A stretch of DNA of 25,922 nt. It comes from a virus. The DNA lies in the IMG/VR virus record IMGVR_UViG_3300026120_000007, positions 1 through 25,922 of that record. One strand, given 5' to 3'. Below, piece by piece: positions 313 to 25,146 of the stretch. The position numbers were made by a program, and so were the translations under genes. Under the pieces are notes generated by a model. It ran no database searches. It saw only the letters and a program-made list of their open reading frames with translations, and was not told where the DNA came from. The stretch's first letter is position 1. Every line of letters starts with the position of its first letter.

Positions 313-720
313 TTATCTGCGCTTTCTCACCACAGGACGCGCACGGCTCACGACACCCTTGTAAACCTTGTTATAGTCCTCGTGAGTACCTATCCAAAGC
401 CAATCCACCCCGTCAGGCTCGCCTTGGTTCTCTATCCCAATGGCTCTGTAGTCAGACTGAGGACCAGACCACCCGACCCTGAACACGTCAGGACGCCCAG
501 AGCTACTGTAGTTCGACACACTAAAATTCCCTTCCCTGTGAGACTTTGTAGGTTTTCCAGCACTCACCCATCTATCGTATGCCTTGTTTGCCGCCTCACG
601 AGCCTCAGGCTTGAGCTTGTTTTGTAGCTTAAAGTAGGTCGTAGCGAAAGCTTCCTCTATCGCATCGGCGGTAGATGTACCCTGCAAGATTGATTTTATG
701 ACGCGCTCAGTACTATTCAT
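313..720 (-). CDS. RelE/ParE-like toxin-fold protein (orphan)
   Basis: 135 residues. The layout seen is an N-terminal helical part (about residues 18-60, with EAREAANKAYDRW), then a short strand with FRVGWSG near residue 81, then DYRAIG, then the C-terminal block DWLWIGTHEDYNKVY near residues 106-120. That order, especially YRA-(I/V)-G followed by W-x-WIG-(S/T)-H-x-x-Y, is what I associate with phage and bacterial RelE/ParE-superfamily proteins, which as toxins cleave ribosome-bound mRNA or poison gyrase. No antitoxin-like partner adjoins it: the next gene on this strand is acidic but not recognisably an antitoxin. Start ATG 720-718 is preceded by the start-proximal motif TATTTAAG with 2-base spacing. 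The C-terminus is very basic (RARPVVRKRR). The fold call is reasonably supported by the motif; toxic activity is inference. Confidence 0.65.
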   Translation of the reverse strand: MNSTERVIKSILQGTSTADAIEEAFATTYFKLQNKLKPEAREAANKAYDRWVSAGKPTKSHREGNFSVSNYSSSGRPDVFRVGWSGPQSDYRAIGIENQGEPDGVDWLWIGTHEDYNKVYKGVVSRARPVVRKRR

Positions 721-722
721 TC

Positions 723-730
723 CTTAAATA
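723..730 (-). promoter_or_regulatory. Start-proximal motif TATTTAAG ahead of the RelE-like gene
   Basis: TATTTAAG lies on the minus strand exactly 2 bases before ATG 720, the same spacing as the TAGTTAAG motif at other starts in this window. It is a variant at the third base. It is proposed as part of a phage promoter lying over the start codon. The adjoining AAGGA could instead be read as a ribosome site, but it would abut the ATG, too close for normal use. Confidence 0.4.
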
Positions 731-746
731 CGTTCTTAGGGGTAAA

Positions 747-2513: not shown

Positions 2514-2661
2514 ACAGCTTACAGAAGAAAACGAGAAACTCAGGGAGCTTCTTGCCTCTACGATAAAGGGGATTGAGTCTCTTCAAGAAGAGGGTGACCC
2601 CAATGCTGAGAAGCTCATGGGAGTACTTGAGGCCGAGTACGAGAAGCTTGGGCTAGAATAG
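754..2661 (+). CDS. Overlapping +1-frame ORF inside the methylase gene (possible overprinted protein)
   Basis: 635 codons without a stop, in the +1 frame relative to the methylase and covering almost all of it. It contains five repeats of the form NWPTP/LWPTPT/LWRTPSA/SWPTPN (nt 1477, 1573, 1660, about 1876 and 2083). It also has a block LNPRWEEVLMGLPVGWTMPS (nt 2317-2376) and an early block DFHASR in the +1 reading of the catalytic GFPCQPFS site. From memory, WPTPT...RKGAS...SGDGLAT and LNPxWVExLMGxPxGWT occur in phage proteins annotated as methylase-related, which argues that this frame is or was translated. The 3' end (nt 2500-2661) is a conventional coiled-coil coding segment lying mostly beyond the methylase stop. 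The first third does not look like ordinary protein, and no convincing ribosome site precedes ATG 754. It could be a separate product, a frameshift product of the methylase, or a decaying relic. Confidence 0.4.
   Translation: MWIVPKNLPMSPPVAVMTESDWDSKESFRILEPSLMWRSKPFAHTTWFKRWNTVSWIRALCTRILKPSHSELFTEKWASSLQDFHASRLVSQAQAEGRKIPDISFRSSLRDSQLCSPTSSSLRTSTGYCQQNAKIKTERKMESLWLSTSFESWSAEVTLRRSIYSQRLKSVRPTSAKGYSFWQSTETNCTDSALPFDKRSSLQRKLCVIDCKASSVLVQDQNKVWYLVQIAPTGVQGSESNWPTPRVSSSNGPSEKEIAQGNPKKRLEAEVALWPTPTVSGNNNRKGASKTSGDGLATKVKNWPTPSARDWKDSPNMSQTREGGRNRVDQLPRAVFSMIWESKISQEKYGTVPTPQDQERLSMDGSPPEWLRTLWRTPSAQEPGISISRLVCKDGSPPKHNKRLYDKETQRLAQIGLPQQVRIEDTMEDNLSDQAVAVYRIVSWPTPNTMDSMGSRSEDSLKRALKKGGCRNLKDVMTHPELYSLERMDVNTEVLGNLILNTEADVFTDMLKSTKNKNEAKLNPRWEEVLMGLPVGWTMPSCASPVTIELTKSVPWETESFLPVQNLLSDYYINALKPKLEEMSQIKQLTEENEKLRELLASTIKGIESLQEEGDPNAEKLMGVLEAEYEKLGLE
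2500..2661 (+). CDS. Small coiled-coil protein (or C-terminal part of the overlapping ORF)
   Basis: 53 residues starting at ATG 2500, overlapping the last 14 bases of the methylase in the +1 frame. The sequence is one amphipathic heptad-type helix: MSQIKQLTEENEKLRELL, then a short loop with EEGDPNAEKL, then EAEYEKLGLE. AGAAG just upstream is a weak ribosome site, so translation coupled to the methylase is likely. There is no stop between this ORF and the long +1 frame upstream, so it could also be the C-terminus of a longer protein. Short coiled coils with a DPNAEKL turn are common in small phage proteins, but no function is recognisable. The 3' end overlaps the convergent gene at 2653-2883 by 9 bases. 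Confidence 0.6.
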   Translation: MSQIKQLTEENEKLRELLASTIKGIESLQEEGDPNAEKLMGVLEAEYEKLGLE

Positions 2662-2883
2662 CTCCATTTGTTCAGCACCGTCATCCTTGGGAGGTTCGGG
2701 CAGTGCGACTTCGACTCTTCCCTTAACGTTTCGCCTTGCGTTAGAGATCCTCCAAGGGGCAGGATTACCAGATCCTGCTTGATACGCAGCAATCTTCCAA
2801 CTTAATGAGCCGAGGGCTTTGGCGGGGGACGAGGCTGTAGTTACGTACTCCCTCCCGTTGTGGCGTACCATGTAAACTTCCAT
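2653..2883 (-). CDS. Small hypothetical protein with a C-terminal clamp-binding-like motif
   Basis: 76 residues, starting MEVYMVRHNGREYVTTASSP. The first half looks like a small beta-sheet domain (MVRHNGREYVTTASSPAKAL, then WKIAAYQ). The tail is polar and proline-rich and ends GAEQMELF. The last five residues, QMELF, fit the bacterial sliding-clamp binding consensus QLxLF with Met for Leu, and they sit at the extreme C-terminus where such motifs often occur. The start is supported by TAGTTAG three bases upstream and by an exact TATAAATA 13 bases upstream of the ATG, on this strand. It is divergent from the tape measure gene, sharing a 23-base spacer. A role around the replication or late-transcription clamp is inference from the motif alone. 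Confidence 0.65.
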   Translation of the reverse strand: MEVYMVRHNGREYVTTASSPAKALGSLSWKIAAYQAGSGNPAPWRISNARRNVKGRVEVALPEPPKDDGAEQMELF

Positions 2884-2886
2884 GCG

Positions 2887-2893
2887 CTAACTA
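2887..2893 (-). promoter_or_regulatory. Start-proximal motif TAGTTAG
   Basis: TAGTTAG lies on the minus strand 3 bases before ATG 2883. The TAGTTA core is at the same distance from the start codon as in the exact TAGTTAAG-N2 copies. Here the next gene upstream is divergent, so the motif cannot be serving to stop upstream translation. Confidence 0.45.
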
Positions 2894-2896
2894 CTG

Positions 2897-2904
2897 TATT
2901 TATA
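2897..2904. promoter_or_regulatory. TATTTATA (+) / TATAAATA (-) element between divergent genes
   Basis: On the plus strand TATTTATA sits 2 bases before the tape measure ATG (2907), in the place TAGTTAAG occupies elsewhere. Read on the minus strand it is TATAAATA, identical to the T4 late promoter core, 13 bases before ATG 2883. It is the only TATAAATA I found by eye in the window. One element could serve both genes. Chance occurrence in an AT-rich spacer cannot be excluded. Confidence 0.4.
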
Positions 2905-2906
2905 CC

Positions 2907-5735
2907 ATGGCTATCGAAGACGAACTTAAAAGTACCATGCAGGCGCTCAAGGACTACTCCAAGTCCATCGCCGAGAGTACTGAGGCTATGCACAAGTCCA
3001 TGTCAGGAAGTACTAGCCAAGTTTCGGCGCTGACTAAACAGCTCAAGAAAAAGAAGACTGAGGAGGAGGCGAGCAATGTACGAACGAAGGCTTATTCCAA
3101 ACACCTCAAGCAGAGCGTAAAATACCTCAAGCAGGGCGTAAAGGCTTACTTTGACATGAATAGGGCGGCAATGCAGGCGTCCACAAACCTTGCGAACAGA
3201 AGCAGGATGTTCGAGTCAGCGATGCACACCCAGCTCGCGCTAGGTACCAGCATACAAGAATCAGCTACAGCTCAGCGTGCGCTTGTTGATTTAGGTCTTG
3301 AGACTAGGGACACTTACACGGAAATGCTTCACGTGAGTTCCATGCTTACGGCAGGGTTCGAGGTGCAGGCAAACACAACGGCTAGACTCGCTCTACAAGC
3401 GGACGCGGCAGGCACGAGCTTTGAGCGCATGGGCGACATCGTCTCAGGCATAGCCCAGGCAACCTCTGTATCAGCAGAGAAGTCAGCAGACTTCTTAGCG
3501 AACATGACAAAGAGTGCGTCTTTACTTTCGGGTAATGTAAGCAACGTGAACGCCCAAGTAAAAGAGCTGTCAGCCCTGCAGGAGGCTTTCCGTAGCGTGG
3601 GGATCGAGGATAACTCTTTAATGGACTTTGCGCAGAACCTCCAATCAGGCAAAAACACTGAGTTCATGCTTACGTTCAAGACAGGAGCGGGCAGTACGTT
3701 CAGTCCTGAACGTATGGTAGCAGGAATTGAAACGCTTGCTTCGCGTGTACGTTCTGTGCCTGAATCTTTGAAGCGTACGGTCGCAGAACAGCTCAGCAGC
3801 TCGTTCAACATCCCTGCTGAACTCATACTTGCAAAAGCCACGTATAGCAACCAGATGTCGGAAGAACTCAAGACGATTAGAGAGCGTATAAAGGAAGAGA
3901 CAAAGCTTAAATCGCTAAGGGAAGGGTTCAACGAACAGATGGGTCAGCTGGGTAAAGTATGGGAGCAACTCAAGAATAGGGTAGGAACTCTGCTTGCTGT
4001 AGGTCTCGAACCGTTGGCGAAGGTATTGGTTAAAGTAGGCACCGCTGTGAACGACCTTCTAGGCGGGCTTATAGACAGCTTGCAGAAGGAAGACGGGGCG
4101 ATGCGGAAGATCGTGGATTCGGTCTCTTCCGTGGTGGGAGGTATTGTAGCTCTGGGCGCCGCCCTTGGTACTCTCGCTGGGGGGCTTTCTGGGCTTCCTG
4201 GGTTGTTTGGAGGGCTTTCTAAGTTGCTCGGAGCGGGAGGCAAGAAAGGAGGGCTTCTTTCTGGGTTGTTTGGAGCGGGAGGCAAGAAAGGAGGTATGCT
4301 CGGCGTCCCTGGTGCAACTAAAAGCAAGGGCGGGGCGTTAGCCCGATTCGGCAAAGGAATGAAGGGAAAAGGTTTCCTCGGAGCAGGTATAGGGCTGGTT
4401 GCTGGAGGAGGTTTAGAAGGCCTCATAGGCGGGTACCTCCTTGAGCGAGGTGGAGCATACGCTATTGATAAGCTTACATCGATCGCTACCAAGTCTGCCA
4501 CCAAAGCAGCACAGAAGACAGCAACGCGCTTCGTAGCGCGTTCAGCACTTCAGTTGCTGAAGAACCCTGCGGTTCTGGCTACCGCTGCCTACGGCTATTC
4601 CGCTTTCAAACTTGCAGAGACCTTTATGACCGCAGGCAAAGGCAAGAAGGTAGAGGCCTCAAGCTTTGCAACAAGCGGGTACTTTGAGTCAGACGCCCTC
4701 CAGCGAGCAATCAAAAACAAGGCTTTAGACGTTCAAATGGGCGCCCAGCTCGCCCCAGGTGAGAGGGGGTACACTGAAGGGTTTCACCCTATAAAAGGGT
4801 TTGGGCAGAGTGCTACAGAGATGTACCGCGCCGTTGTTACGCGTGACCTTGACGAATACAAAAAAGAGCGTGCCGTCGAAAGAAGGGGACAAGAACTTGC
4901 CGCCGTCAAGGCAGCTATCCAAGAAGCACCTGCTACTGTATCTAATAGCGAGCTAGAGGAACTCACTGCGATGTCTGTTCGTGCAAGCAAGCTGAGGCTC
5001 GGCACGAGCGATACGGACGAGAGGTATAGCAGGCTGCTTGGCCTTCGACGACAGGCTGATTACGGTACTGACGAAGTAATGGCGCAGTTCAAGGAGCTTC
5101 AGGGCGTTGCTATGAGTCGCCTCCTGACTGAAGAAGGGTGGGAAGGCGAAGGCGCTGATTTCCGCCTTGTAGCGGCTGATTACATAAAGAAAAACCCAGA
5201 CTTCATCAAGGGTTATGAGGATAAGAAACTAGACACAGGTTCTCAGCAAGCAATGGTGTCTGCTATAATGGGCATAAGCGAGAACCGCCGTATGACTGGT
5301 GCTGGCAGGCTGGCGACGGCAGACTTCCTTAAAAAGGTTGGTGTTAAGTTCAAAGATGGGGCGATGATCGTGGACGAAGAAGGTCGCCCTGTTATCCAGA
5401 CCTCTCTGACGCAAAGCCAGGTAAAGGATCGCTACCAGGCAGCCTTAGAGTGGTCAGAAGCGCGTATTATGCGCCAAAACGCAAACGAAACGCTACGCCT
5501 CCAAAGAGGTCTCCTTTCGATAGAAGAGGAAGCTTTAATGATTCAGCGCAAGCAGCAGGCGGATATGATACAAGGTATCCGACATGTGAGCGAGACGATA
5601 GACCTTACTGAGGCTAAAAAGAAGGCGCTAGAGGAGAGTAAAATAAAAATAGAAAAGCAACGTGAAGACATCCGAAACTTCAACGAAGGCTTAAACCAGT
5701 GGCAAACAGTCACAAAGCCCACCCCCGTTATATGA
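2907..5735 (+). CDS. Tail tape measure protein
   Basis: 942 residues. The tape measure fills the tail tube lumen during assembly and sets its length. Evidence: long helical, Ala/Ser/Gln-rich N-terminal half with heptads; a central glycine-rich hydrophobic stretch (about residues 405-515, including VVGGIVALGAALGTLAGGLS) typical of the membrane-interacting part; then a long polar helical C-terminal part. Length and composition fit T4 gp29-type proteins. Using the usual rule of about 1.5 Å per residue, the tail would be roughly 140 nm. The hydrophobic region holds a repeated GAGGKKGG segment encoded by two identical 23-base DNA copies. The next gene, a baseplate/tube-cap-like protein, overlaps it by ATGA. 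The start carries the TATTTATA motif and no Shine-Dalgarno sequence. Confidence 0.9.
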   Translation: MAIEDELKSTMQALKDYSKSIAESTEAMHKSMSGSTSQVSALTKQLKKKKTEEEASNVRTKAYSKHLKQSVKYLKQGVKAYFDMNRAAMQASTNLANRSRMFESAMHTQLALGTSIQESATAQRALVDLGLETRDTYTEMLHVSSMLTAGFEVQANTTARLALQADAAGTSFERMGDIVSGIAQATSVSAEKSADFLANMTKSASLLSGNVSNVNAQVKELSALQEAFRSVGIEDNSLMDFAQNLQSGKNTEFMLTFKTGAGSTFSPERMVAGIETLASRVRSVPESLKRTVAEQLSSSFNIPAELILAKATYSNQMSEELKTIRERIKEETKLKSLREGFNEQMGQLGKVWEQLKNRVGTLLAVGLEPLAKVLVKVGTAVNDLLGGLIDSLQKEDGAMRKIVDSVSSVVGGIVALGAALGTLAGGLSGLPGLFGGLSKLLGAGGKKGGLLSGLFGAGGKKGGMLGVPGATKSKGGALARFGKGMKGKGFLGAGIGLVAGGGLEGLIGGYLLERGGAYAIDKLTSIATKSATKAAQKTATRFVARSALQLLKNPAVLATAAYGYSAFKLAETFMTAGKGKKVEASSFATSGYFESDALQRAIKNKALDVQMGAQLAPGERGYTEGFHPIKGFGQSATEMYRAVVTRDLDEYKKERAVERRGQELAAVKAAIQEAPATVSNSELEELTAMSVRASKLRLGTSDTDERYSRLLGLRRQADYGTDEVMAQFKELQGVAMSRLLTEEGWEGEGADFRLVAADYIKKNPDFIKGYEDKKLDTGSQQAMVSAIMGISENRRMTGAGRLATADFLKKVGVKFKDGAMIVDEEGRPVIQTSLTQSQVKDRYQAALEWSEARIMRQNANETLRLQRGLLSIEEEALMIQRKQQADMIQGIRHVSETIDLTEAKKKALEESKIKIEKQREDIRNFNEGLNQWQTVTKPTPVI
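4230..4294 (+). repeat. 23-base direct repeat in the tape measure gene
   Basis: Two identical 23-base copies (4230-4252 and 4272-4294), each encoding GAGGKKGG, are spaced 42 bases apart, a multiple of three. The bases between and before them are also similar (ctgggttgtttggag occurs twice). This looks like an in-frame duplication of about 14 residues in the hydrophobic core, which would change tail length slightly. Confidence 0.75.
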
Positions 5736-6808
5736 GACACACAGACGAAAGAGACGCATTCGACAGGTACGGAGCTACGATGAGTGGCTACCTGTACGCC
5801 CTAGACAGTGCAAGTGACGCTTGGGGCTCTCCCTTCATCGCTTTTCCAGCCCTCCCTGACGAGATAGACTTTACAAGAGAAAACAGCTTCGACGTCGTGG
5901 TTAACCAACTGTACCCTGATGGAATACACATCTACAGGGGTACACAGCCCTTAGAGATCCCTATGTCGTTCGTGCTTCACGCGTACGACTACGATTACTG
6001 CAACGGACCGCACGGACTGGTAGAAATTGCCTCGAAACTCCACTCACTCGCCCTTCCCTTGTCAAGAGGAGGGGAAGCGAAGGATACCAGTGTACCTACG
6101 GCTCAGGACGAGAAGAAGAAGGACGAAGATGGTGAGGCCGACCCTGACGAAGCAGTCGACGAAGCAGTCGACGAAGCAGGTCAGAGCGTGGAGTCTAAAG
6201 ATAAAAGCTCCCCTGACGACAATGTCACGGTTGCTCAGTCTAATCGAAACCGATTAGAAACTAGCAGTAGAATTAGCAAAAGTATAGGCGCGGAAGGTAA
6301 TGTTCCGACGTGGCCGCCTGTCTGCGTTATGAGGTTGATGGTTTCGGGTCAGAGAGGCGTACATTGCATCGGGTACTTGAAGCGCGTATCTGTCAAGTTT
6401 AAGGGTCCGTGGCTTAACGAAAAACCAAAAGATGCTGGCAGAGACTACGCAACGTCCGAGGAGCTTAGAGGTAGAAAGCCGGGGCAGAACTTACCTACCG
6501 CCTTGGAGGCGAGCTTTACCTTCGTACACGCCCCTGGTTATCGGAACAAGTTTTCAGTTGATGACGACAGTGCTTACTACGATGAGCGCATAGGTGTGTT
6601 TAACCAGACGTTCGGTGAATACGTACATGACCACTTCTACGACACTATAGACGTATCAACTGGGGGTGGTGCCGTGTCTATACGCACGGTAAAAGACCGA
6701 AGGGTGGCCGTGAAGGACGAAAACGGAAAAATTCTGTACACTTACTCAGACCAATCCAGCCAGATTAGAGGTGAGCGGGCTAGGCAGGCTACGCAGAACG
6801 GAGGTTAA
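5732..6808 (+). CDS. Baseplate / tail-tube-cap-like structural protein
   Basis: 358 residues from ATG 5732, which overlaps the tape measure stop (ATGA); an in-frame start at 5699 would lie inside that gene and is less likely. The N-terminal domain (about 10-110) contains GYLYALDSASDAWGSP, DEIDFTRENSFDVVVNQ and PLEIPMSFVLHAYDYDY. The C-terminal half has PPVCVMRLMVSGQRGVHCIG, YLKRVSVKFKGPW and LPTALEASFTFVHAPGY. The pattern of a central strand, then 'xVxVxFxxPW...LPxxLExSFTF', is what I associate with baseplate proteins that cap or nucleate the tail tube (T4 gp48/gp54/gp53-like). Its place just after the tape measure agrees. Between the halves is a disordered acidic linker (about 110-190) with a DEAV tandem repeat. 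The exact T4 equivalent is not certain. Confidence 0.65.
   Translation: MRHTDERDAFDRYGATMSGYLYALDSASDAWGSPFIAFPALPDEIDFTRENSFDVVVNQLYPDGIHIYRGTQPLEIPMSFVLHAYDYDYCNGPHGLVEIASKLHSLALPLSRGGEAKDTSVPTAQDEKKKDEDGEADPDEAVDEAVDEAGQSVESKDKSSPDDNVTVAQSNRNRLETSSRISKSIGAEGNVPTWPPVCVMRLMVSGQRGVHCIGYLKRVSVKFKGPWLNEKPKDAGRDYATSEELRGRKPGQNLPTALEASFTFVHAPGYRNKFSVDDDSAYYDERIGVFNQTFGEYVHDHFYDTIDVSTGGGAVSIRTVKDRRVAVKDENGKILYTYSDQSSQIRGERARQATQNGG
6146..6180 (+). repeat. 12-base tandem repeat encoding DEAV
   Basis: gacgaagcagtc is present twice in perfect tandem (6146-6157, 6158-6169), followed by a partial third copy (6170-6180). It encodes DEAVDEAVDEAG in the acidic linker of the baseplate-like protein. Such repeats often vary in copy number by slippage. 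Confidence 0.85.
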
Positions 6809-8739
6809 GACCACTTAAACGTAGTCCCTTTTGTCTCTTTTGTTGCCGTAAGAACGTAGTCAGCGTACTTCTCAGTCTCTTCGTGGTGGTCAACTAAGAA
6901 GATGAGTATGCGTCTTTTGTGTGCGACCTCTTTCAAGTACGTCAGTATATTGTGTCGGACTACGCCATCTTGAGAGTTGATGACCTCGTCGTACCATCGG
7001 TATCCGACTTTAGAAGGTACATTGCCAAGTTCAGCTAACGTCTCGGACACGATCAGGTTTGTAAGACCTGACTCGCCCTTCGAGTTCCCCTCTACGCGCA
7101 CGCTTCCGTATCGGTTACGCGCGTCCACGATAAGTTCTGCGCGACTCTCCCCGCTCTTGAGTTCCTTGCTCGTAGAATAGTTGATCGCTAGAGTGCCGCC
7201 TGTCAATCTCTCGGATATGCGCGTCGATATGGCGGTCATAGGGCGGACGGCATCACGAAGGATCATGTTAGGTATGCCAGCAGGGCTAAAAGCCTTTGAC
7301 CAGTAATCGCCTATGAGCGAAACCTGCTCGGCTTCAGCAAGCATCTCGGCTGCTTTTTTAAGGCGGTCTTCGCAGCTTCTGAGTGCTTTTCTTCGCTCTT
7401 TTACGATGACCTTAGCTTGCACGACTTCGGCGTCAGTGACCTCTTCCGACAGGCTCTTGATTTTGGTCTCAAGTGCCGTTATCTCGTTTTCACTGCGCGT
7501 AGCTGATGTTTCCGCGCTCTCGTACTTCAAGCTCAACTTTCGCACTTCGTTTGATCCGTTGTCCTCCAGCTTAGCCTCGACACCGTCCATTTTGTCATCG
7601 AGTTCGTCTAAAGTGGAGTCCCAAGCAAGACACGCATCCTCAGCCTCATTCCACGATTCCTCAGCCTTTTTCTTGGCAGCCTTTAGGCGTTTGATCTCGT
7701 CTTCGCTATGCTTCTTGTCCCAGTCCTTTCCGCATGTAGGGCATACGTCAGGTTCGCCGCTGGCGTCTTTCAAAGCTTTTTTTGACGCAGACAGGTCAGC
7801 TTTCCTGTCTGCTCGGACACTGACCCACTTATCGCGGTCGTGGCGAGCCTGCTTCGCCTTTGATTTGACTTCGAGAAGCTCTTTGCGTAAAGCCTCGTGC
7901 TTCTCGGCTACCTTAACCTCTGCGTCAGCGATGCTTTTCTTAATACGCTTCATGTCCTCACGGAAACCCTTCACAGACTCCGCAAGCGCGGCAATGTCAC
8001 CTTCTGCTTTTTTAATCTCGGGTTTCCTTTTCTTGAGTTCGTCTGCGTAAGACTCTTCCGCCTCTTTCAGATCCTCCTTGGCTTCCTCAAGGGCTTCTTT
8101 AGCCTCCTCAACGTTGCTGCGGGCTTCTTCCTGCGCACGCTGCTCGCTTATGAGGTCGCTCTTGAACGCTGAACTCGCTTTTTTGACCTTGCCGTGGAGA
8201 ACGTCCCACGAAGGCTGGTTCAGTGCGGACATTACAATGTGGACAGTGTCAGCTTGTGAGAGTCTGTTGAACTTCAAAGAGTCTCCGTCGACGTACACAG
8301 TCCACTCTGCCAGCTTGGGAGGCAGTCCGATGGCGTTCGACAAATCTTCCCGCGTAACAGTAGTGCGGTTTCGCTCAATCGGTGCATTGTCGCCTATCGT
8401 GTACCGAAGACCTTCCCCTGTTGATCCTACTTCGGCACACTTGTACCCGTTTTCTACGAGAAGCTTGCTCCCGTTAAGTGTAGCATTTACAGCTACGTAA
8501 GTGTTGCCTTCATCCTTGTAGCTGTAGTGACCTATCTTAGCGTACCTGCCTGGGACTCCTAAAAGCGCACGGCTAAGGGCTTCCCCGAGAGCTGTCTTGC
8601 CTGAGCCTACTGACTTTAGCTTACCGTGTCCCGTCAAGTTTTGACCGTTTACCAGTATTAAACCGTACTCAGGGAACGTGATAGTGTCTTCCCGTACCGT
8701 AGCCCAGTTTCTTAGTGTGATGGATTGTATGCGTAACAT
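6805..8739 (-). CDS. Rad50/SbcC-like SMC ATPase (T4 gp46-like recombination nuclease subunit)
   Basis: 644 residues. Rad50-type ATPases pair with an Mre11/SbcD/gp47 nuclease to process DNA ends for recombination-dependent replication. Seen: Walker A SVGSGKTA (residues 43-50); a long N-terminal coiled coil (about 195-325); a zinc hook CPTC (Cys333, Cys336); a return coiled coil (about 345-475); SPAGIPNMILRDAVRPM (485-501); a signature-like GNSKGESGLTNLI (551-563); a Walker B-type region GYRWYDEV (Asp584, Glu585); and a terminal VDHH switch histidine (about 617-619). The overall order and short arms fit phage gp46. No gp47-like partner is in the window. The gene lies on the opposite strand between tail genes, overlaps the upstream convergent gene by 4 bases, and is 13 bases from the divergent SWIM-protein gene. 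Confidence 0.93.
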   Translation of the reverse strand: MLRIQSITLRNWATVREDTITFPEYGLILVNGQNLTGHGKLKSVGSGKTALGEALSRALLGVPGRYAKIGHYSYKDEGNTYVAVNATLNGSKLLVENGYKCAEVGSTGEGLRYTIGDNAPIERNRTTVTREDLSNAIGLPPKLAEWTVYVDGDSLKFNRLSQADTVHIVMSALNQPSWDVLHGKVKKASSAFKSDLISEQRAQEEARSNVEEAKEALEEAKEDLKEAEESYADELKKRKPEIKKAEGDIAALAESVKGFREDMKRIKKSIADAEVKVAEKHEALRKELLEVKSKAKQARHDRDKWVSVRADRKADLSASKKALKDASGEPDVCPTCGKDWDKKHSEDEIKRLKAAKKKAEESWNEAEDACLAWDSTLDELDDKMDGVEAKLEDNGSNEVRKLSLKYESAETSATRSENEITALETKIKSLSEEVTDAEVVQAKVIVKERRKALRSCEDRLKKAAEMLAEAEQVSLIGDYWSKAFSPAGIPNMILRDAVRPMTAISTRISERLTGGTLAINYSTSKELKSGESRAELIVDARNRYGSVRVEGNSKGESGLTNLIVSETLAELGNVPSKVGYRWYDEVINSQDGVVRHNILTYLKEVAHKRRILIFLVDHHEETEKYADYVLTATKETKGTTFKWS

Positions 8740-8742
8740 TGA

Positions 8743-8749
8743 TAGTTAG
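8743..8749 (+). promoter_or_regulatory. Start-proximal motif TAGTTAG
   Basis: TAGTTAG lies 3 bases before ATG 8753 in a 13-base spacer between divergent genes. There is no Shine-Dalgarno sequence. Upstream translation cannot reach it, so a promoter role is more likely than a translational one. Confidence 0.45.
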
Positions 8750-8752
8750 AAC

Positions 8753-10393
8753 ATGGAAAAGCCTAAAAGAGGATACCGTCTAGTAGTTGGCCTAGGGAAC
8801 AAGGTGTACAGCCTTGCCGACTGGTCGCGCGAAGTATCCCTGAAAAAAGGAAGAAGAAGCTACCCCGAAGGGCTTAGACTCGGGGCTAGGCGCGACCTGT
8901 TTGATTACATCGACAACGACGAAGGTGTACGCCAGTTCCTTCTGACCTACGAGTTCGGTGACGATGACTTTAACAAGAAACCTGACTTTGACGGCGAGTT
9001 TTCTGTGAAAGCAGCGGAGCTTGTTGACGTTGAAGAGGTACACCCTGGGTTAAACGAGAATTTAGAGGACGTGTACGGGGTCGATGAAAATGAGCTGGCA
9101 ATATGCAGGCACATGTTCGAGGATATGTCGGTGTACGAAGCTTACCAGCATGGTGAGATTCATCCGCTACTAGAGAAGCTCACGTTCTCCCAGCTGTACG
9201 ACATCTCCGAACCTAAGCGCAAGGTTAGGGCAGAGACCGTACGCGGACCGTCGCTTCAGATGAGCGCAGGCGAAGACACTGAGACGTATTACTTCAACTT
9301 TAAGTCCTTCCCGAGCACTACAGGTCTGCGCCACAAAGGGTATATCCGCTTCTTCAAGCCACGCGGAATGATTTCTCCAGACGACTACCGCCCCATGGAG
9401 AACTTAGACTGCTTCGTAGACTGTACTTGCCCTGACTACAGGTACCGATGGGCATGGGCAAACAAGCAACGAGGGTCTAGCGCGGTCGGTCCAGGCAGCC
9501 TTAATCTGTGCCTTAACCGCGCACCTCGAAAAACCAACCCAACAGGGACACCTGGTCTCTGCAAGCACCTGTTGCATCTGTCTGATTACGTCTACGGGAC
9601 TACGACCACGTTTGGAGGGTCTGGGGCAGACGATTCGCCTGTAATGCGCAGGATTGTGAAGTACGCAGATAAGCGGTGGACTGATTTGGATTCTGAACTT
9701 CAGCGTGCAAAAGAACGTGAGCAGGCGTACTCTAAACGTGCAACTAGGTACGCTGTAGGTGATGTACCAAGACCAGACGGAGAGGTACACATTCCAGCCA
9801 GACCAGACGACATAGAAGTACCCGATCCTCCTACCTTAGACGACCCAGACGATCTTGGATCAGAGGTCGTTACTGCGCCTGACGTCCCCGAAGACCCCGA
9901 GGATGCCCGTCCTACAGGCTTCTTAAATCAAGTACTGAACGCGGCAAGGCGCGGAGCTGAGACTATAGGAAGCTCAGTACGTAACTGGACAAACCGCTTT
10001 TCACGTCCGTTCCGTAGAGGGACTGACTCCACCGAAGAAACTCTCCAATCTCGGAGAGTATGTATAACAGGAACCAAAACAGCCATGAGCATCAAGCAAT
10101 CCATAAAAACAATACGCAGTCTCCGCGAGAACGAAGAACTTGTTGACGAGCTGCCCGACGCCCCTGCTGCACCTTCGGAGGAAGGCGAAGTAGAAGGTCA
10201 AGGCGAGAAAGCTATCGACATTCTCACGCAGATCCTTAACCAGCTCCAAGAACTCGTCCAAGTTGAAAAAGGCGAAGGCGAGGAGATAGAAGACGTCGAA
10301 GATGACCTCGAAGACCTCGAAGACAACATCGAGGGTGACCTTGAGGGCATCGCTGACGAAGGTGACGGCGAAGACTTCAACCCTGAAAAGTAA
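8753..10393 (+). CDS. Virion-associated-like protein with a SWIM-type zinc finger
   Basis: 546 residues. The central part contains FVDCTCPDYRYRWAWANKQR (222-240) and, about 30 residues on, TPGLCKHLLHLSDYV (266-280). The cysteines and histidine (Cys224, Cys226, Cys270, His272) match the SWIM pattern CxC...CxH, which binds zinc and is linked to DNA or protein binding. Between them lies LNLCLNRAPRKTNPTG, a pattern I recall from structural proteins of large phages. After about residue 340 the protein is proline- and acid-rich and low in complexity, and the last 60 residues are extremely acidic. There is an abrupt change near residues 425-445, where a hairpin and internal ATG (10085) suggest a separate or alternative product. 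Function is unknown; the context among tail and virion genes suggests a virion protein. Confidence 0.7.
   Translation: MEKPKRGYRLVVGLGNKVYSLADWSREVSLKKGRRSYPEGLRLGARRDLFDYIDNDEGVRQFLLTYEFGDDDFNKKPDFDGEFSVKAAELVDVEEVHPGLNENLEDVYGVDENELAICRHMFEDMSVYEAYQHGEIHPLLEKLTFSQLYDISEPKRKVRAETVRGPSLQMSAGEDTETYYFNFKSFPSTTGLRHKGYIRFFKPRGMISPDDYRPMENLDCFVDCTCPDYRYRWAWANKQRGSSAVGPGSLNLCLNRAPRKTNPTGTPGLCKHLLHLSDYVYGTTTTFGGSGADDSPVMRRIVKYADKRWTDLDSELQRAKEREQAYSKRATRYAVGDVPRPDGEVHIPARPDDIEVPDPPTLDDPDDLGSEVVTAPDVPEDPEDARPTGFLNQVLNAARRGAETIGSSVRNWTNRFSRPFRRGTDSTEETLQSRRVCITGTKTAMSIKQSIKTIRSLRENEELVDELPDAPAAPSEEGEVEGQGEKAIDILTQILNQLQELVQVEKGEGEEIEDVEDDLEDLEDNIEGDLEGIADEGDGEDFNPEK
10040..10059 (+). other. Hairpin inside the SWIM-protein gene
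   Basis: ACTCTCC (10040-10046) and GGAGAGT (10053-10059) form a perfect 7-bp stem with a 6-base loop. No U-tract follows, so it is not a standard terminator. It lies 25 bases before internal ATG 10085 and could affect translation or RNA processing there. Confidence 0.5.
10085..10393 (+). CDS. Possible internally initiated acidic protein (alternative start in the same frame)
   Basis: An in-frame ATG at 10085 would give 102 residues: MSIKQSIKTIRSLRENEEL, then a proline/acid linker, a short coiled coil (AIDILTQILNQLQELVQVE) and a very acidic tail. The DNA before it (hairpin, AGGA 14 bases upstream, then AACCAAAACAGCC) reads like a leader. The residues it encodes in frame (LQSRRVCITGTKTA) look unlike the acidic protein on either side. 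Codon choice after the ATG moves toward C-ending codons, as in the highly expressed genes here. Size and acidity recall small prohead-core or scaffold-type proteins, but that is a guess. It may equally be only the C-terminal domain of the long protein. Confidence 0.3.
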   Translation: MSIKQSIKTIRSLRENEELVDELPDAPAAPSEEGEVEGQGEKAIDILTQILNQLQELVQVEKGEGEEIEDVEDDLEDLEDNIEGDLEGIADEGDGEDFNPEK

Positions 10394-12397: not shown

Positions 12398-12405
12398 TAG
12401 TTAAG
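12398..12405 (+). promoter_or_regulatory. TAGTTAAG motif ahead of the baseplate hub gene
   Basis: An exact TAGTTAAG lies 2 bases before ATG 12408, with context GTAGTAGTTAAGCT. There is no purine-rich ribosome site. TAAG could only pair with the extreme 3' end of 16S rRNA, which would place it too near the start for usual spacing. Confidence 0.5.
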
Positions 12406-14284: not shown

Positions 14285-14612
14285 CCTCTATCAAAGTTTC
14301 GTTGAAGACGCCCTCACGCGCACTTTCACCTTAAACGAAAGGCAGAGAGATGTTGCCGTAGGTCTCATAAGATCCCATATAGAGAAGTCGGCGAGTTTCG
14401 AGGACATACAAACGCAGAGAAGGTGGGAGGTGTTCCTGCCTGACCTTCAAGCGATGCTCCGAGGTACTGCTGTGACGCTCAAAGACGGATCATTTAGTGT
14501 GGAGGTAACGGGTACAGGGTACAACGCGTATGTCCTGCTTAAAAGGGGTTCTATGTGGTTTGCGCCTTTAGAAGACTTGGACTCTATTTTGATTACTGCA
14601 CGTAGTAGTTAA
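14277..14612 (+). CDS. Small hypothetical structural-cluster protein
   Basis: 111 residues, overlapping the previous gene by 8 bases. The N-terminal half is helical (LYQSFVEDALTRTFTLNERQ, then VGLIRSHIEKSASFEDI), and the C-terminal half is beta-rich (TAVTLKDGSFSVEVTGTGY, then NAYVLLKRGSMWFAPLEDLD). It ends SILITARSS with its TAA stop inside the TAGTTAAG motif of the next gene. The family is not recognised; it sits between neck- and tail-completion-like genes. Confidence 0.55.
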   Translation: MDSLYQSFVEDALTRTFTLNERQRDVAVGLIRSHIEKSASFEDIQTQRRWEVFLPDLQAMLRGTAVTLKDGSFSVEVTGTGYNAYVLLKRGSMWFAPLEDLDSILITARSS

Positions 14613-14613
14613 G
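14606..14613 (+). promoter_or_regulatory. TAGTTAAG motif ahead of the KOW-like gene
   Basis: An exact TAGTTAAG lies 2 bases before GTG 14616, with context GTAGTAGTTAAGCT, the same 14 bases as at the hub gene. The TAA inside the motif is also the stop codon of the gene before it. Confidence 0.5.
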
Positions 14614-14615: not shown

Positions 14616-14888
14616 GTGAAAAAGAAAACCACAATACAAGACGTCGTTGAAAGCGTAAACCTGAAGAACCACGGCAGCGTTGTAACTGCGGCTAACAAGC
14701 TCCTTGAGGGCACTCCCGTCAGTCGTGGTCAGAAGGTTGCCGTTATCGAAGGTCCTGCCGAGGCGCACCCCGCAGATGGTCAGCAAGGAAAAGTTACCAA
14801 CATGCTCAATAATGGCTACGCAGAAGTCACACTTGAGAACGGTGCAAAGTACACGCTGTCCGTAAGCTTACTGGTGCCTCTCAGCTAA
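14616..14888 (+). CDS. Small KOW-like beta-barrel protein
   Basis: 90 residues with a GTG start at 14616. That start is chosen because TAGTTAAG stands exactly two bases ahead of it and no ATG is nearby. The N-terminal part is helical (TTIQDVVESVNLKNHGSVV). The C-terminal half, RGQKVAVIEGPAEAHPADGQ, QGKVTNMLNNGYAEVTLENG and YTLSVSLLVPL, has the spacing of a KOW or SH3-like barrel (GxxVxVxxGP...GxVxxxxxxxxxVxLxxG). KOW barrels bind RNA, DNA or protein in transcription and translation factors, but phage assembly proteins use the fold too. Function not assigned. Confidence 0.55.
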   Translation: MKKKTTIQDVVESVNLKNHGSVVTAANKLLEGTPVSRGQKVAVIEGPAEAHPADGQQGKVTNMLNNGYAEVTLENGAKYTLSVSLLVPLS

Positions 14889-18079: not shown

Positions 18080-18085
18080 CCGAAG

Positions 18086-18091: not shown

Positions 18092-18097
18092 TCTATT

Positions 18098-18754: not shown

Positions 18755-18782
18755 GTTTAACCTGCTTCTCTTCTTCTCAGAG

Positions 18783-18811: not shown

Positions 18812-18847
18812 GTTCTACACTTTAGAAACAACCAACAAAGGTACATC

Positions 18848-20632: not shown

Positions 20633-21141
20633 AAGGCTATAGAGATCCACCCTTTGTCTAGTGCGTATATGAGCGCACTCACCACGGAAACGCCGCCAAT
20701 CAAAGTGTACCTCCAGCGAACAACCCAATCGACCACTTTCCGCGTCTTATCGCTTGTGCTTTCAAGCTGACACACTCGGTTCTTCAAGTCAGCGGTGTCG
20801 TCTGCTATGCTTGATGTAGCACTCAGGATTCTGGTAAACTTGTCGGACAGGTCATTGTTCAAGTCAGTGAAGCCTTCTGCTATAGAAGTCCTAATTTCTT
20901 CGAGTTCTTCGTCTTGAACCTTGTCTTGAGCCTCGACCGCCGTAACCCTTCCGTTCGTTCTGGTGGTTTGTTTTTCAACCTCTTGAAGGGTTGACCACGC
21001 GTCTTCGAGGCGATCTTTAACGTCAAGTACGTAGCCGCGCAGCTCGTCAAGAACAGCGGCTTGCTGTCCGTTGATATTCTGTTGCTGTAAAGCTTGGTCT
21101 TCAAGTCTCTCAGTACGCCTTAAGTAGTGTTCGTCAGTCAT
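20629..21141 (-). CDS. Coiled-coil protein with a C-terminal membrane anchor (XhlA/holin-accessory-like layout)
   Basis: 170 residues. About residues 1-130 are continuous polar coiled coil (ERLEDQALQQQNINGQQAAV, AWSTLQEVEKQTTRTNGRV, LSDKFTRILSATSSIADD). These lead to a basic stretch (KTRKVVDWVVRWR) and one hydrophobic helix, YTLIGGVSVVSALIYAL (145-161), with a short tail. Coiled coil, then basic residues, then one C-terminal membrane helix is the layout of XhlA-type holin accessory proteins, though this one is about twice as long. It would sit in the inner membrane facing the cytoplasm. Its start overlaps the stop of the receiver-domain gene (ATGA), so the two are translationally coupled. A lysis or membrane-signalling role is inference. 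Confidence 0.6.
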   Translation of the reverse strand: MTDEHYLRRTERLEDQALQQQNINGQQAAVLDELRGYVLDVKDRLEDAWSTLQEVEKQTTRTNGRVTAVEAQDKVQDEELEEIRTSIAEGFTDLNNDLSDKFTRILSATSSIADDTADLKNRVCQLESTSDKTRKVVDWVVRWRYTLIGGVSVVSALIYALDKGWISIAF

Positions 21142-21488
21142 TTACTTACGCTTTGAAGTTCGTTTTTTGTTATAGGCTTGTTAATGAACTTGACAGGACA
21201 TCTCTTGCAGAACTCTTGAATTTCGTTAGATAAGTACGCGGACGTAAGCAGTATAAGGCTGGCCTCTGTTTCGCGCTTTATCACGGCTTCAAGCACGTCT
21301 GCCCCGCTGAGCTGACCTCCAAGCGTTAAATCGCAGATGATCACGTCGTATTGCTCTCCATTAATGTCGTACGCGAATAAAAACTCCTCACCCGTGGAGA
21401 AGTGATCGCACTCTTTTCCTCCGCTCTCAAGGTACTTTCTTACGAGTTTAGCGGAGAATACGTTGTCCTCTACGATTGCCGCCTTCAT
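21138..21488 (-). CDS. Free-standing response-regulator receiver domain (CheY-like)
   Basis: 116 residues, a complete single receiver domain. Seen: acidic pair Glu7-Asp8 in AAIVEDN; phosphoacceptor Asp53 in DVIICDLTLGG; Thr82-Ser83 in LILLTSA; and Lys104-Pro105 in KFINKPI. All residues required for phosphorylation and switching are intact. There is no DNA-binding or enzymatic output domain and no histidine kinase in the window, so it would take phosphate from a host kinase or act as a partner-binding switch. Its ATG shares a base with the stop of the beta-sandwich gene, and its stop overlaps the start of the coiled-coil membrane protein, the obvious candidate partner. A receiver domain among tail genes is unusual. 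Confidence 0.9.
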   Translation of the reverse strand: MKAAIVEDNVFSAKLVRKYLESGGKECDHFSTGEEFLFAYDINGEQYDVIICDLTLGGQLSGADVLEAVIKRETEASLILLTSAYLSNEIQEFCKRCPVKFINKPITKNELQSVSK

Positions 21489-21841
21489 TACAGTGAAAGG
21501 ATAGGTATAGGACCTCCCGACTGTCTATCGTAATCGCGAGTCACAGAGAACTCAAGAATAGCACCGCCTGAGGCGTTGCCGACGAGGCGTACTTGAGGGT
21601 ACTGCGAGTTCACCTTCAAGGTACGAACTTGACGCGACATGATAGTGTTGTAGAAGTCGGTGCCGAGAAGACCCATATCGACCCATTTAGTGCCGTTATG
21701 TTCTTGGAAACGGTAGTTCACCGTGTTGATGCCGACATTTTTCAATATCACCATCATGTCTGTAGGTCCTGAGCGAAGGACTTCAAACAGAGTGTGTTCT
21801 GTCTCGGCTACTTCTTGTGAATCGGAAACATGGATGTTCAT
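21488..21841 (-). CDS. Small beta-sandwich virion-like protein
   Basis: 117 residues of alternating strands: MNIHVSDSQEVAETEHTLFE, DMMVILKNVGINTVNYRFQE, HNGTKWVDMGLLGTDFYN, VRTLKVNSQYPQVRLVGN, ASGGAILEFSVTRDYDR. It has no cysteines, signal peptide or membrane segment. The 'xVRLVGNASGGAxLxFSVTR' end occurs in small phage surface or decoration-type proteins as far as I recall. Its strand order resembles the protein at 10400-10891. It has an exact TAGTTAAG motif two bases before its start and overlaps the receiver gene at its stop. A structural role is likely from the context; its location in the virion is unknown. Confidence 0.6.
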   Translation of the reverse strand: MNIHVSDSQEVAETEHTLFEVLRSGPTDMMVILKNVGINTVNYRFQEHNGTKWVDMGLLGTDFYNTIMSRQVRTLKVNSQYPQVRLVGNASGGAILEFSVTRDYDRQSGGPIPILSL

Positions 21842-21843
21842 GC

Positions 21844-21851
21844 CTTAACTA
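21844..21851 (-). promoter_or_regulatory. TAGTTAAG motif ahead of the beta-sandwich gene
   Basis: An exact TAGTTAAG on the minus strand lies 2 bases (GC) before ATG 21841, in a 36-base spacer. If it is a promoter, it would drive the beta-sandwich, receiver and coiled-coil membrane genes as one unit. Confidence 0.5.
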
Positions 21852-21877
21852 CAATCCACGGACGAAAAACGCCGAGC

Positions 21878-22414
21878 CTAAAATCGTATTCTCCAACTCA
21901 GCACGGGGGCAAACTCGCTTGACTTGTTAATGCCCACAGTCGTCTTTCGAGAAAGCAGCGTGTCATCACCTGAAAACAAGCCCAGCTCGGTTATGAGGTA
22001 GCCGTTTGCGTCCGCTACGCCCAGTGAGAACTCTACGAGAGCGATAAACGGCGCAGGAAAGCTTACCCCTTGTATTTCCTTCGTGAACAGGCTGTTTGAG
22101 AGCTTGATGGGGTTTTGGAGAGCTACGTCAGTCACCTTGGCAGGTGAAGTACCTGTACCCACCCCGAATCGGGAGCAGACATGGTTGCTGATAGGCTCAG
22201 CAAACCCAAACGCGTACGCCAGAAGCTGCCGCCCCTGATCTACGAATAGGTTCTCTCCGATCGGAAGCTCGTGCTTTTCAATGCCCCACCCTTTCGGAGT
22301 GTTCAAGGTTGGGCGAGCAAGAAGGCCTTGGTCGATAGCGTCCTGTGTTCGGACAAACTTGCCGTCCTCTCGGTGGCCTCCTGTGATGGTAAGAAATCCT
22401 TTTGGTCTGTTCAT
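21878..22414 (-). CDS. Tail appendage / fibre-like structural protein
   Basis: 178 residues. It includes NLFVDQGRQLLAYAFGFAEP, CSRFGVGTGTSPAKVTDVAL, FPAPFIALVEFSLGVADAN, GYLITELGLFSGDDTLLSRK and a closing strand FAPVLSWRIRF. The pattern 'GxGTxxAxxxDxxLxxPI...xxxxxELGLFxxDxxLxxRKxxxxIxKxxxxxxxxxWxIxF' is common in small phage tail and fibre-associated proteins. It is next to the spike gene, starting 4 bases after its stop, and shares the TAGTTAAG motif with it. It is probably a baseplate- or fibre-associated protein; the specific role is unknown. Confidence 0.55.
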   Translation of the reverse strand: MNRPKGFLTITGGHREDGKFVRTQDAIDQGLLARPTLNTPKGWGIEKHELPIGENLFVDQGRQLLAYAFGFAEPISNHVCSRFGVGTGTSPAKVTDVALQNPIKLSNSLFTKEIQGVSFPAPFIALVEFSLGVADANGYLITELGLFSGDDTLLSRKTTVGINKSSEFAPVLSWRIRF

Positions 22415-22416
22415 GT

Positions 22417-22424
22417 CTTAACTA
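22417..22424 (-). promoter_or_regulatory. TAGTTAAG motif ahead of the appendage-like gene
   Basis: An exact TAGTTAAG on the minus strand lies 2 bases (AC) before ATG 22414, with context CGTATTTAGTTAAGAC. Its TAA is also the stop codon of the spike gene. Confidence 0.5.
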
Positions 22425-23599
22425 AATACGAATCCAGCTGATGATATGTTTAATGTGCGTCCTCCCACCTGTATAACCATGGTGCTACCTGAACTTATCA
22501 GCGTAGAAGACCCTACTTCAAGAACGTAATCTGACGCAACCGCTCCGAAGTACGAGTTAGACGTTAGTCCGTACCCTTCCGAACATACCATTTCTCGATT
22601 TGACGTAGCTGTACTGTACAGAGCCTCTACAGTCTCATAAATGTTACCTGCGGTAAGCATGTGGTTTGCTGATATGCGCCAGTCAGTGTTTACCCCGATA
22701 ACGTGCCACATCTCGAAAGGGGTTAAGTCATTGGATATTGCTTGCTGCTGCGCGACCCAGGATTGCTGTAACACGACCTTTTCTTCTGCTGTCAGGCTGG
22801 CGGATAGCCACGCATCCGCAAGGTTAGAAGGAACTTCTGGCTTGGTCACAGGGGTGCGCCCTGTCGTGTACAAGACAGGTGCCTTTATGTCTACGCGAGC
22901 CGAGGATGCGATAGTTGACTGCACCTGCGCTTCGACCGTGTAAGTGGTTAAGGCTTTCATAAGGTACGCGGTACCTGTGAAGAATAGATCGTCGAACTTA
23001 GCCTGAAAAGCGTTGTTGCTGTATACCTCTACACTTCCTGACCGAGGGTCTAACCCTGTCTCGTCGGTTACGGCTATGCTGTTTCCGAGCGGAGTTCTTA
23101 TGTCTATTCGACCGTCAAGCGCAATGGAACTCGCATCGGTCGCGACTATAGAGTATCCTTTTTGAGTGCTGAACGTGATGTCAGTAGGGTGAAACCACCA
23201 CACATGTCCATACTTGGTGAACCCTGATTGAGCTTTAGGAGTCGATGAGCCGTTCTGGGTCTCGTAGAAATCTTTCACGAACCTGTCTTTTTCCTCTACG
23301 TCTAAGTCAGGCTTTTGCTGAGACCCCCACTCCCATACTGGTTTTTCTGGTTCACCATCCAAAAAGCGGACAAATACACGATCACCTACGTTCGGTATCC
23401 AGCTGCCGCCGCCACTGCCTGACGTCTCGCCTGCGGGGAGTCCCGAGGGCAGTGCCCAAGGAAGGTCTCCGTCAGAGATAGATCCGTCAACGCCTGCGGT
23501 GGGTCCGTAAGCAGCAGGTACGCGTACCCGAACCCTCCCCATCTGGTAAGGGTCTTTGTTGTTGACTACGTATCCTGAGTATGTGCCTGGGTATTGCAT
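22418..23599 (-). CDS. Baseplate central spike protein (gp5 OB-fold / VgrG-like), no lysozyme domain seen
   Basis: 393 residues. The N-terminal 95 residues are a gp5/VgrG-type OB domain: YSGYVVNNKDPYQMGRVRVR, LPWALPSG, GGGSWIPNVGDRVFVRFLDG and EPEKPVWEWG. Next come beta-rich segments (YSIVATDASSIALDGRIDIR, then TPLGNSIAVTDETG), a helical insertion (about 255-310), and a repetitive C-terminal part (VASDYVLEVGSSTLISSGS, TMVIQVGGRTLNISSAGF) consistent with a beta-prism or helix needle. It would sit under the hub and pierce the outer envelope. T4 gp5 carries a lysozyme domain between OB and helix; no such catalytic sequence is visible here. It is divergent from the tube-paralogue gene with a 14-base spacer. 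Confidence 0.82.
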   Translation of the reverse strand: MQYPGTYSGYVVNNKDPYQMGRVRVRVPAAYGPTAGVDGSISDGDLPWALPSGLPAGETSGSGGGSWIPNVGDRVFVRFLDGEPEKPVWEWGSQQKPDLDVEEKDRFVKDFYETQNGSSTPKAQSGFTKYGHVWWFHPTDITFSTQKGYSIVATDASSIALDGRIDIRTPLGNSIAVTDETGLDPRSGSVEVYSNNAFQAKFDDLFFTGTAYLMKALTTYTVEAQVQSTIASSARVDIKAPVLYTTGRTPVTKPEVPSNLADAWLSASLTAEEKVVLQQSWVAQQQAISNDLTPFEMWHVIGVNTDWRISANHMLTAGNIYETVEALYSTATSNREMVCSEGYGLTSNSYFGAVASDYVLEVGSSTLISSGSTMVIQVGGRTLNISSAGFVFS

Positions 23600-23603
23600 G
23601 CAG

Positions 23604-23611
23604 TAGTTAAG
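23604..23611 (+). promoter_or_regulatory. TAGTTAAG motif ahead of the tube-paralogue gene
   Basis: An exact TAGTTAAG lies 2 bases (TT) before ATG 23614 in a 14-base spacer between divergent genes. The spacer has no room for a conventional promoter plus leader on this side without entering the spike coding sequence. Confidence 0.5.
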
Positions 23612-23613
23612 TT

Positions 23614-25146
23614 ATGCCTATCGTAACTACAAAGAACAGGTGGGGGACGCGCGGCGGTCTTGAGATTCAAAGATCAGACATGTGGGTCGCCCTGTTTGAC
23701 CTACGCGACTTAAACGAAACCACGCCTGATACCATAGCGAACGTGCATGATGGGATTATGTACCAGTTCTGCCATTCTGCGTCATTCTCAGAGTCAGTCA
23801 TCAACCCTATGGAGGTAAAAAGGTTCTCGCTTCCTTTGCAACTTCCTGGGTACGACCAGGCGTATCAAGGCGTACGGTTTACTTTCAACATAGGTAAAGA
23901 TGCGGAATCTTTGGGCGGACTGCCGCCTGTTGTATCAGTATTGAAGCAGTGGTATAACGCTGCCCGCGCAGGTAGGGGAGGTATCGACTACCGGTACTTA
24001 TTAACCAAGGATGGCACTGAAAACGTCGTACCTGAGAGCAGCTACATAAACCTAGTCGAAGGTCAGGGGATACCGAACTTCACCAAGAACATCGCACTAG
24101 TTCTTCTGCGAGGGTCAGAACGCTCTGTTTTGGCAAAAAACCCACAAGCTGAGGTGAACAACGACCTAAACCTCCAGGCGTCTTGGGTTTTCCTGCTTAA
24201 AAGAGCATGGTGCGGGGGTCTTCAGATGGATGAGCTATCTTACGACGGTAGCAACGCGAGCAGGATTATAGCTCAAGTCTACCCTGAGGTTGTAGACTGG
24301 CTTCCTGCCTTTGACTTAGTAAAAAACAGATTTCTTCCTGAGGCAGGCAACAAGCCCCTAGGTGACACAGTGTCAGACCTCTCCCTTGCGTCCATAATAG
24401 AAGGCGTGAAAGCGCGTATAGAAGACCAGCGCAGCGCGGCAGCCAACGAACTTACAGGCGGGGTAGGGCTCAACAGCCTGACTCAGCAGGACGGTGTATT
24501 TTTCCAGAACCCTGACGCTGAGCTTGACGTTAGAGTGACTGCTGACGGGTACGCCACGTCTGAGCAGCTTGACGAAGCTATCGAGAACGACGTGGTAAGC
24601 ACGGGAAGCGTACAAACGAGGCGCATCACGTACAGAGGCGAAGTCATAGAGGTGCCTGTTGACCTCAACGGAGAAGACGACGCGTCGGCACTTCGGGTTG
24701 CCAACGGTCAGATACTCTCTAAGGTAGCCGACCTCGAAGCTGATTACCAAATAGAGCAGTACAGGCAAGCCAACCCTGAAGATCCTGAAGGATTCGGTTT
24801 CCTTCAGGTGCCTGGGACGGGTGATGCTGTACCTTATGGCTTTGAGGGTTCGCCGAGCTACGAAGATGCCTTAACTGACGTGTACAACAAATCAACGGAG
24901 CTTCAGGAGCGTGCCAGCGAAAATTACAACGCTGCTCTTGGTTCGCAGAACACTACGGAAGTTGTAGGTGGCGAGGAGGTGCTCTCGTTCGGAACGGTCG
25001 CTTCTGAGGCGAACAAGCAGTCAATCAAGTTTAACAACAGAGAGTACGAGTACACGCCGCAGCCAGGTGAAACCCAAGAGGAAGCTGAGGCTAACGCTAA
25101 GGTACACTTCAAGGAAGTCATCACTAAAGACCAGTTCCCCGCGTAA
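23614..25146 (+). CDS. Tail-tube-like baseplate protein (tube initiator, gp48/gp54-like) with long C-terminal extension
   Basis: 510 residues. The first 230 or so resemble the tail tube protein of this phage: MPIVTTKNRWGTRGGLEIQR SDMWVALFDL against MPIKYKNVWGSAGSNLEQQR SDLFKVSINL. A later helix/loop also corresponds (KQWYNAARAGRGGIDY against ERWHWQIAHPGSGGVS), as does the closing strand region (IIAQVYPEVVDWLPAFDL). In T4 the tube initiators gp48 and gp54 share the tube fold, so this is probably the ring on which the tube nucleates. Residues from about 260 on are an acidic, probably elongated extension (ADLEADYQIEQYRQANPEDP, TPQPGETQEEAEANAKVHF) not present in the tube. The start carries TAGTTAAG with 2-base spacing and no Shine-Dalgarno sequence. 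Confidence 0.75.
   Translation: MPIVTTKNRWGTRGGLEIQRSDMWVALFDLRDLNETTPDTIANVHDGIMYQFCHSASFSESVINPMEVKRFSLPLQLPGYDQAYQGVRFTFNIGKDAESLGGLPPVVSVLKQWYNAARAGRGGIDYRYLLTKDGTENVVPESSYINLVEGQGIPNFTKNIALVLLRGSERSVLAKNPQAEVNNDLNLQASWVFLLKRAWCGGLQMDELSYDGSNASRIIAQVYPEVVDWLPAFDLVKNRFLPEAGNKPLGDTVSDLSLASIIEGVKARIEDQRSAAANELTGGVGLNSLTQQDGVFFQNPDAELDVRVTADGYATSEQLDEAIENDVVSTGSVQTRRITYRGEVIEVPVDLNGEDDASALRVANGQILSKVADLEADYQIEQYRQANPEDPEGFGFLQVPGTGDAVPYGFEGSPSYEDALTDVYNKSTELQERASENYNAALGSQNTTEVVGGEEVLSFGTVASEANKQSIKFNNREYEYTPQPGETQEEAEANAKVHFKEVITKDQFPA

Follow-up and report, generated by a model that had tools for sequence, protein, structure and literature searches.

Motif copies in the window

The 25,922-nucleotide stretch analyzed here (IMG/VR record IMGVR_UViG_3300026120_000007, positions 1 to 25,922; hereafter the window) is a viral fragment that overlaps a 39.4-kb contig, and it carries an octamer, TAGTTAAG, which had been proposed to mark late promoters giving near-leaderless mRNAs. 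Five copies lie exactly 2 nucleotides (nt) ahead of a start codon, as claimed: 12398-12405 (+) for the gene at 12408-13688, 14606-14613 (+) for the GTG start of 14616-14888, 21844-21851 (-) for 21488-21841 (-), 22417-22424 (-) for 21878-22414 (-), and 23604-23611 (+) for 23614-25146 (+). The complement of this last copy reads TAACTA and stands 4 nt from the divergent gene 22418-23599 (-), which encodes a baseplate OB-domain protein. The only other exact copy, which had been placed in the hub gene, is located there at 13607-13614 (-) with no start after it, and is probably due to chance. Against these six copies, 0.83 are expected in the window, and none of 100 shuffles had as many as six. Across the 28 gene starts of the window one 8-mer recurs five times at a fixed offset, versus a maximum of two in 2000 draws of 28 random ATGs.

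Four further starts had been described as preceded by variants of the octamer. All four variants are present, but the form that they share is TA[G/T]TTA at a distance of 4 nt (N4), to which the window variants of TAGTTAAG reduce: TATTTA at 725-730 (-) for 313-720 (-), TAGTTA at 2888-2893 (-) for 2653-2883 (-), TATTTA at 2897-2902 (+) for the tape-measure-like gene 2907-5735, and TAGTTA at 8743-8748 (+) for 8753-10393. The motif of the 14616-14888 gene is retained in eight of its ten orthologues.

Beyond the original prediction, the window contains a second motif, GTTCTA, and its relatives a third, canonical sigma70 class. One GTTCTA copy (8747-8752 (-), N7) precedes the SbcC-like gene 6805-8739 (-) and overlaps the late-type motif of the divergent gene; within the 13 bp that separate 8739 (-) from 8753 (+), GTTCTA belongs to the SbcC-like gene and TAGTTA to the opposite one. 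The other (25149-25154 (+), N6) precedes a primase-like gene that begins at 25161 and runs past the window end. A lone response-regulator receiver domain (PF00072) is encoded amid tail genes at 21138-21488 (-).

Motif geometry in related phages

Searches with sheath and 8753-protein profiles brought together roughly 1.2 Mb of sequence from relatives, in contigs of up to 238 kb with a GC content of 47-61%; 12 contigs were analyzed. Genes were called by a home-made caller that used neither upstream sequence nor motif, and enriched upstream words were then sought. Among the contigs, G015 duplicates G009, and much of G002 duplicates G012; 1393 non-redundant genes remain, to which the distances below refer. 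The main statistics were recomputed after G015 and identical start regions had been dropped.

TAGTTA is strongly enriched upstream of genes in every one of the 12 contigs, and GTTCTA or GTTCTT (GTTCTW) in most. TAGTTA stands 4, 5, 6, 7, 8 and 9 nt from the start codon in 39, 10, 12, 19, 6 and 6 genes, respectively, with almost none nearer or further and a hard lower limit at 4 nt; reversed words give no comparable distance peak. The spacing had been described as fixed, which holds for the five TAGTTAAG sites with their exact 2 nt, but in the relatives N4 is only the lower bound of a 4-9-nt range. In its longer form, GTAGTTA, the motif lies directly ahead of an open reading frame (ORF) in 122 of 171 copies, versus 18 of 214 in the reversed control. 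A lack of enrichment at starts had been named as the outcome that would speak against a promoter; the copies so placed amount to 73% of 186 over all contigs and 71% of 171 without the redundant G015. The logo of the 171 late sites reads G-TA-[GTA]-TTA, that is, (G)TA[G/T/A]TTA instead of the core ending in TTAAG first suggested, and the logos of the late and GTTCTW sites contain no -35 element in either case. The late motif is found at 27% of divergent starts (gap <30 nt), 17% of same-strand starts (gap 0-9 nt) and 1% of overlapping starts.

GTTCTW behaves similarly, with 48, 21, 18 and 12 genes at 6, 7, 8 and 9 nt, respectively, and a lower limit of 6 nt. Among the genes that lack both motifs a third class was seen, consisting of an A/T-rich tract, TTGAC, 16-18 nt, TANNNT, 6-10 nt and the start codon; among the non-redundant genes, distances of 6, 7, 8, 9 and 10 nt occur 15, 3, 5, 2 and 2 times and shorter ones not at all, a single stray at 1 nt having been seen in the class otherwise. 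Because a canonical sigma70 promoter is expected to initiate transcription 7 nt after the hexamer, the start in this class would fall on the start codon, and its 6-nt limit thus serves as a ruler that calibrates the late and GTTCTW classes. Together the three lower limits place the -10 element such that the start codon would be +1, the arrangement of leaderless genes of the TANNNT type. A Bacteroidetes-type -7 element was also considered, and was dropped in view of the canonical TTGAC -35 of the third class. The A/T-rich tract upstream of TTGAC is conserved (TAAAATTTTA-like) and resembles an UP element, for example at G009:C1:24253 and G011:C1:8336.

Division by function

The two motifs divide the genes by function. 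Families with GTTCTW versus the late motif number 19 versus 0 for DNA metabolism and 2 versus 22 for virion proteins (p = 2.6e-10). GTTCTW precedes genes for DNA polymerase, DnaB helicase, a DNA helicase, NAD ligase, primase, SbcC and SbcD, and GTAGTTA those for portal, tail fibre, head-tail adaptor, tape measure and baseplate proteins. An exception is a baseplate-hub-like family (18848 in the window), which belongs to the GTTCTW class in the relatives. The class also follows orthology, with 165 concordant and 7 discordant pairs, as compared with a mean of 84 concordant pairs (minimum 54) after permutation. A GroES-like co-chaperonin conserved across the clade (G009:C1:169894-170520 (+)) has GTTCTW upstream.

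A probable signature of the transcription start

In late-class genes whose start codon is 6-9 nt away, and which would have leaders of 2-5 nt, a transcription start set by the motif would lie ahead of the start codon. In 46 of 67 such genes a pyrimidine at offset 3 and a purine at offset 4 follow TANTTA, whereas the frequency of this step at other offsets is 0.10-0.18 (p = 7e-14), and in genes without the motifs no pyrimidine-purine step stands out ahead of the ATG. The step is tied to the motif and not to the start codon, and thus behaves like a transcription start.

A sigma-like protein of the clade

The original prediction had also called for a search for a phage sigma factor or RNA polymerase. 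A sigma-like family of 336 amino acids was found in 21 contigs. Two of five members match the PHROG late sigma family (phrog_234), the best with an E-value of 0.003, so sequence similarity is weak, and a sequence search of the PDB with the family returned nothing. In the AlphaFold model (mean confidence, pLDDT, 73), residues 12-122 superpose on region 2 of sigma-E (Z 11.9; 2.4 Å over 92 residues) and on T4 gp55 (7d7c; Z 11.0; 3.8 Å over 112 residues); helical bundles can reach a Z of about 11 by chance, but the matches listed are sigma factors. Following region 2 there is a weak match to a Mor-type profile. A gp55-gp33 fusion had been considered when the PHROG 'late transcriptional activator' (phrog_836) suggested gp33, and was dropped as Pfam names this region Mor (Mor/C-type). 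Judging from the modeled fold and from the absence of a beta-subunit family match in seven contigs with working controls, the sigma-like protein together with host RNA polymerase probably reads the late class.

Two further observations concern sigma-type genes. A second, clear Sigma70_r2 protein (G008:C1:200305-200514 (-), in a 396-amino-acid open frame) occurs in one contig only, and the sigma-like gene at L245:1627-3708 (also L244:1627-3738) has an insert of about 350 residues inside region 2, with intein-like ends (serine first; VHN last, then cysteine).

Proposed mechanism and alternatives

The motifs, their spacing, the conservation of their classes, the initiator signature and the absence of Shine-Dalgarno (SD) sequences are observed directly. 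The arrangement GTAGTTA-N4..9-start very probably serves a clade of large uncultured myoviruses as its late promoter; every sequence test made agrees with a late promoter and near-leaderless mRNAs, 'late' being deduced from gene content. GTAGTTA would act as a -10-only element that fixes the transcription start on a purine after a pyrimidine, 5 nt past its last base. In most cases this purine would itself open the start codon, yielding a leaderless mRNA, and otherwise a leader of 1-5 nt would result. The promoter would be repeated gene by gene, even where genes are colinear within a cluster or diverge across 13 bp, and would probably be recognized by host RNA polymerase with the clade-encoded sigma-like protein, whose region 2 fold resembles that of T4 gp55. 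GTTCTW-N6..9-start would have the same geometry for DNA-replication genes, as would TTGAC-N16..18-TANNNT-N6..10-start for genes mostly not shared clade-wide; the latter class is presumably transcribed early, by the host holoenzyme. We also favor, with appreciably less confidence, a wider scheme in which the whole lineage runs an early, middle and late program with all promoter classes pressed against the start codon, combining three -10 elements, leaderless mRNAs, a phage sigma dedicated to late genes (region 2 plus a Mor-like part) and SD-independent translation throughout.

Several points weigh against this interpretation. Both motifs are mostly absent from the genes for sheath, tube and major capsid protein. 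Only about a fifth of genes bear a motif, and SD-free internal genes require another explanation. GTTCTW shows the initiator signature only weakly (14 of 33, p = 0.02), and the N4 spacing of TAGTTA is 1 nt below the T4 geometry (-13 to -6). The contig of the window stops short of the sigma gene, which leaves the link between sigma and motif circumstantial, and 2 of 16 sigma genes have GTTCTW upstream and 0 of 16 GTAGTTA. Start positions rest on the home-made gene caller, though the motif was not used by it, and sites were pooled across related phages and hence are not fully independent. Transcription starts, timing and the pairing of factor with motif are inferred from the DNA.

The promoters might instead be read by a phage-encoded RNA polymerase similar to that of phiKZ, whose late promoters likewise lie at the transcription start (T-3ATG+1; PMC7598289), and N4 is an unusually short spacing for a sigma-type promoter. 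However, the beta-subunit family (PF00562) had no match in seven contigs up to 238 kb long, which may be incomplete, while 14 of 14 controls were detected, and the clade encodes the sigma-like protein; we consider a phage polymerase unlikely. A search for a T7-type polymerase gave no match, its controls being equally silent.

Still less likely is a role of the motif in ribosome binding to SD-free mRNAs, either by pairing with a 16S rRNA tail of unusual sequence or as a fixed start-codon context. The motif does lie at about -10 to -5, near the usual SD position, and overlapping genes almost never bear it, as translational coupling also predicts. Moreover, the clade does lack SD sequences, as originally claimed for the starts in the window: SD-like words occur upstream of its starts at the frequency of random sequence, whereas in distant sheath-bearing phages (24 loci), where neither motif peaks, they precede 47% of genes (0.47 versus 0.08). 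However, an SD-type signal that pairs with the 16S tail should be found with genes of every type, whereas the two motifs divide by function and follow orthologues. Nor would a ribosome signal explain why the pyrimidine-purine step is tied to the motif rather than the start codon, why the distances show a sharp lower limit and an upward tail but no symmetric optimum, why the independent sigma70 class, which has both a -35 and a -10, stops at the same point, or how one sequence serves both divergent genes. A stop/restart element, at which ribosomes reinitiate after the motif's TAG and TAA have terminated the upstream gene, is scarcely credible: the motif's TAA is the stop codon of the preceding gene at 14616 and 22414, but TATTTA variants have no TAG, and divergent starts bear the motif as often as same-strand starts or more often; the original prediction had already cited copies between divergent genes against such a role.

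Comparison with known systems

The late promoter proposed here resembles those of T4 (Straboviridae), which have no -35 element (PMC2988020) and are likewise -10-only boxes present in many copies, one per late virion gene or small cluster. Both systems also have a specificity protein resembling sigma region 2, though the clade protein, only weakly similar to gp55 in sequence, is longer and has the weak Mor-like match at its end. Unlike GTAGTTA, the T4 box is TATAAATA, which occurs near starts once in all contigs. In the T4 gene 53-24 region, 14-35 nt that include an SD separate each late box from its start, whereas GTAGTTA lies 4-9 nt away with no SD. As in phiKZ, another large phage, the element would be directly at the transcription start, but in phiKZ TATG spans that start, whereas GTAGTTA would be upstream of it; phiKZ uses a multisubunit phage polymerase, of which none was detected here (PF00562, seven possibly incomplete contigs).

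In leaderless genes of Deinococcus-Thermus and Actinobacteria, the -10 motif TANNNT precedes the start by about 12 bp (PMC3160421; PMC12340547). There, as proposed here, the -10 adjoins the ORF and transcription starts at the start codon, but the motif is that of cellular sigma-A, whereas the virus has two phage-specific motifs in addition to a sigma70 class. Extracytoplasmic function sigma factors such as sigma-E provide the nearest region 2 fold, and the sigma-E -10 consensus also begins with GT (GTC; PMC7598289). Unlike sigma-E promoters, the late class lacks a -35 element, and the C-terminal part of the clade protein is not region 4-like by sequence. In the searchable literature no phage lineage is described with leaderless transcription in all its classes.

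With nothing but sequence, this geometry would locate transcription starts at single-base precision. It would likewise provide a promoter map, assign functionally uncharacterized genes to a temporal class, and fix start codons. It predicts that the ribosomes of the host favor leaderless mRNAs.

Host and RNA genes

Public phage DNA contained no match, protein matches were only weak, and no contig with the sheath was found in GTDB. The NAD ligase is nearest to Omnitrophota and others at 37-40%, with Verrucomicrobia at 34-40%; the transfer-messenger RNA (tmRNA) and the response regulator gave no host information. Complete tmRNA genes (Rfam RF00023) are present at L178:2476-2830 (-), L214:235-652 and L166:3211-3641, two of them with readable tag peptides. 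A tRNA with the amber-reading anticodon CTA, raising the possibility of amber recoding, is encoded at L181:12581-12656, in a contig that holds about 36 tRNAs.
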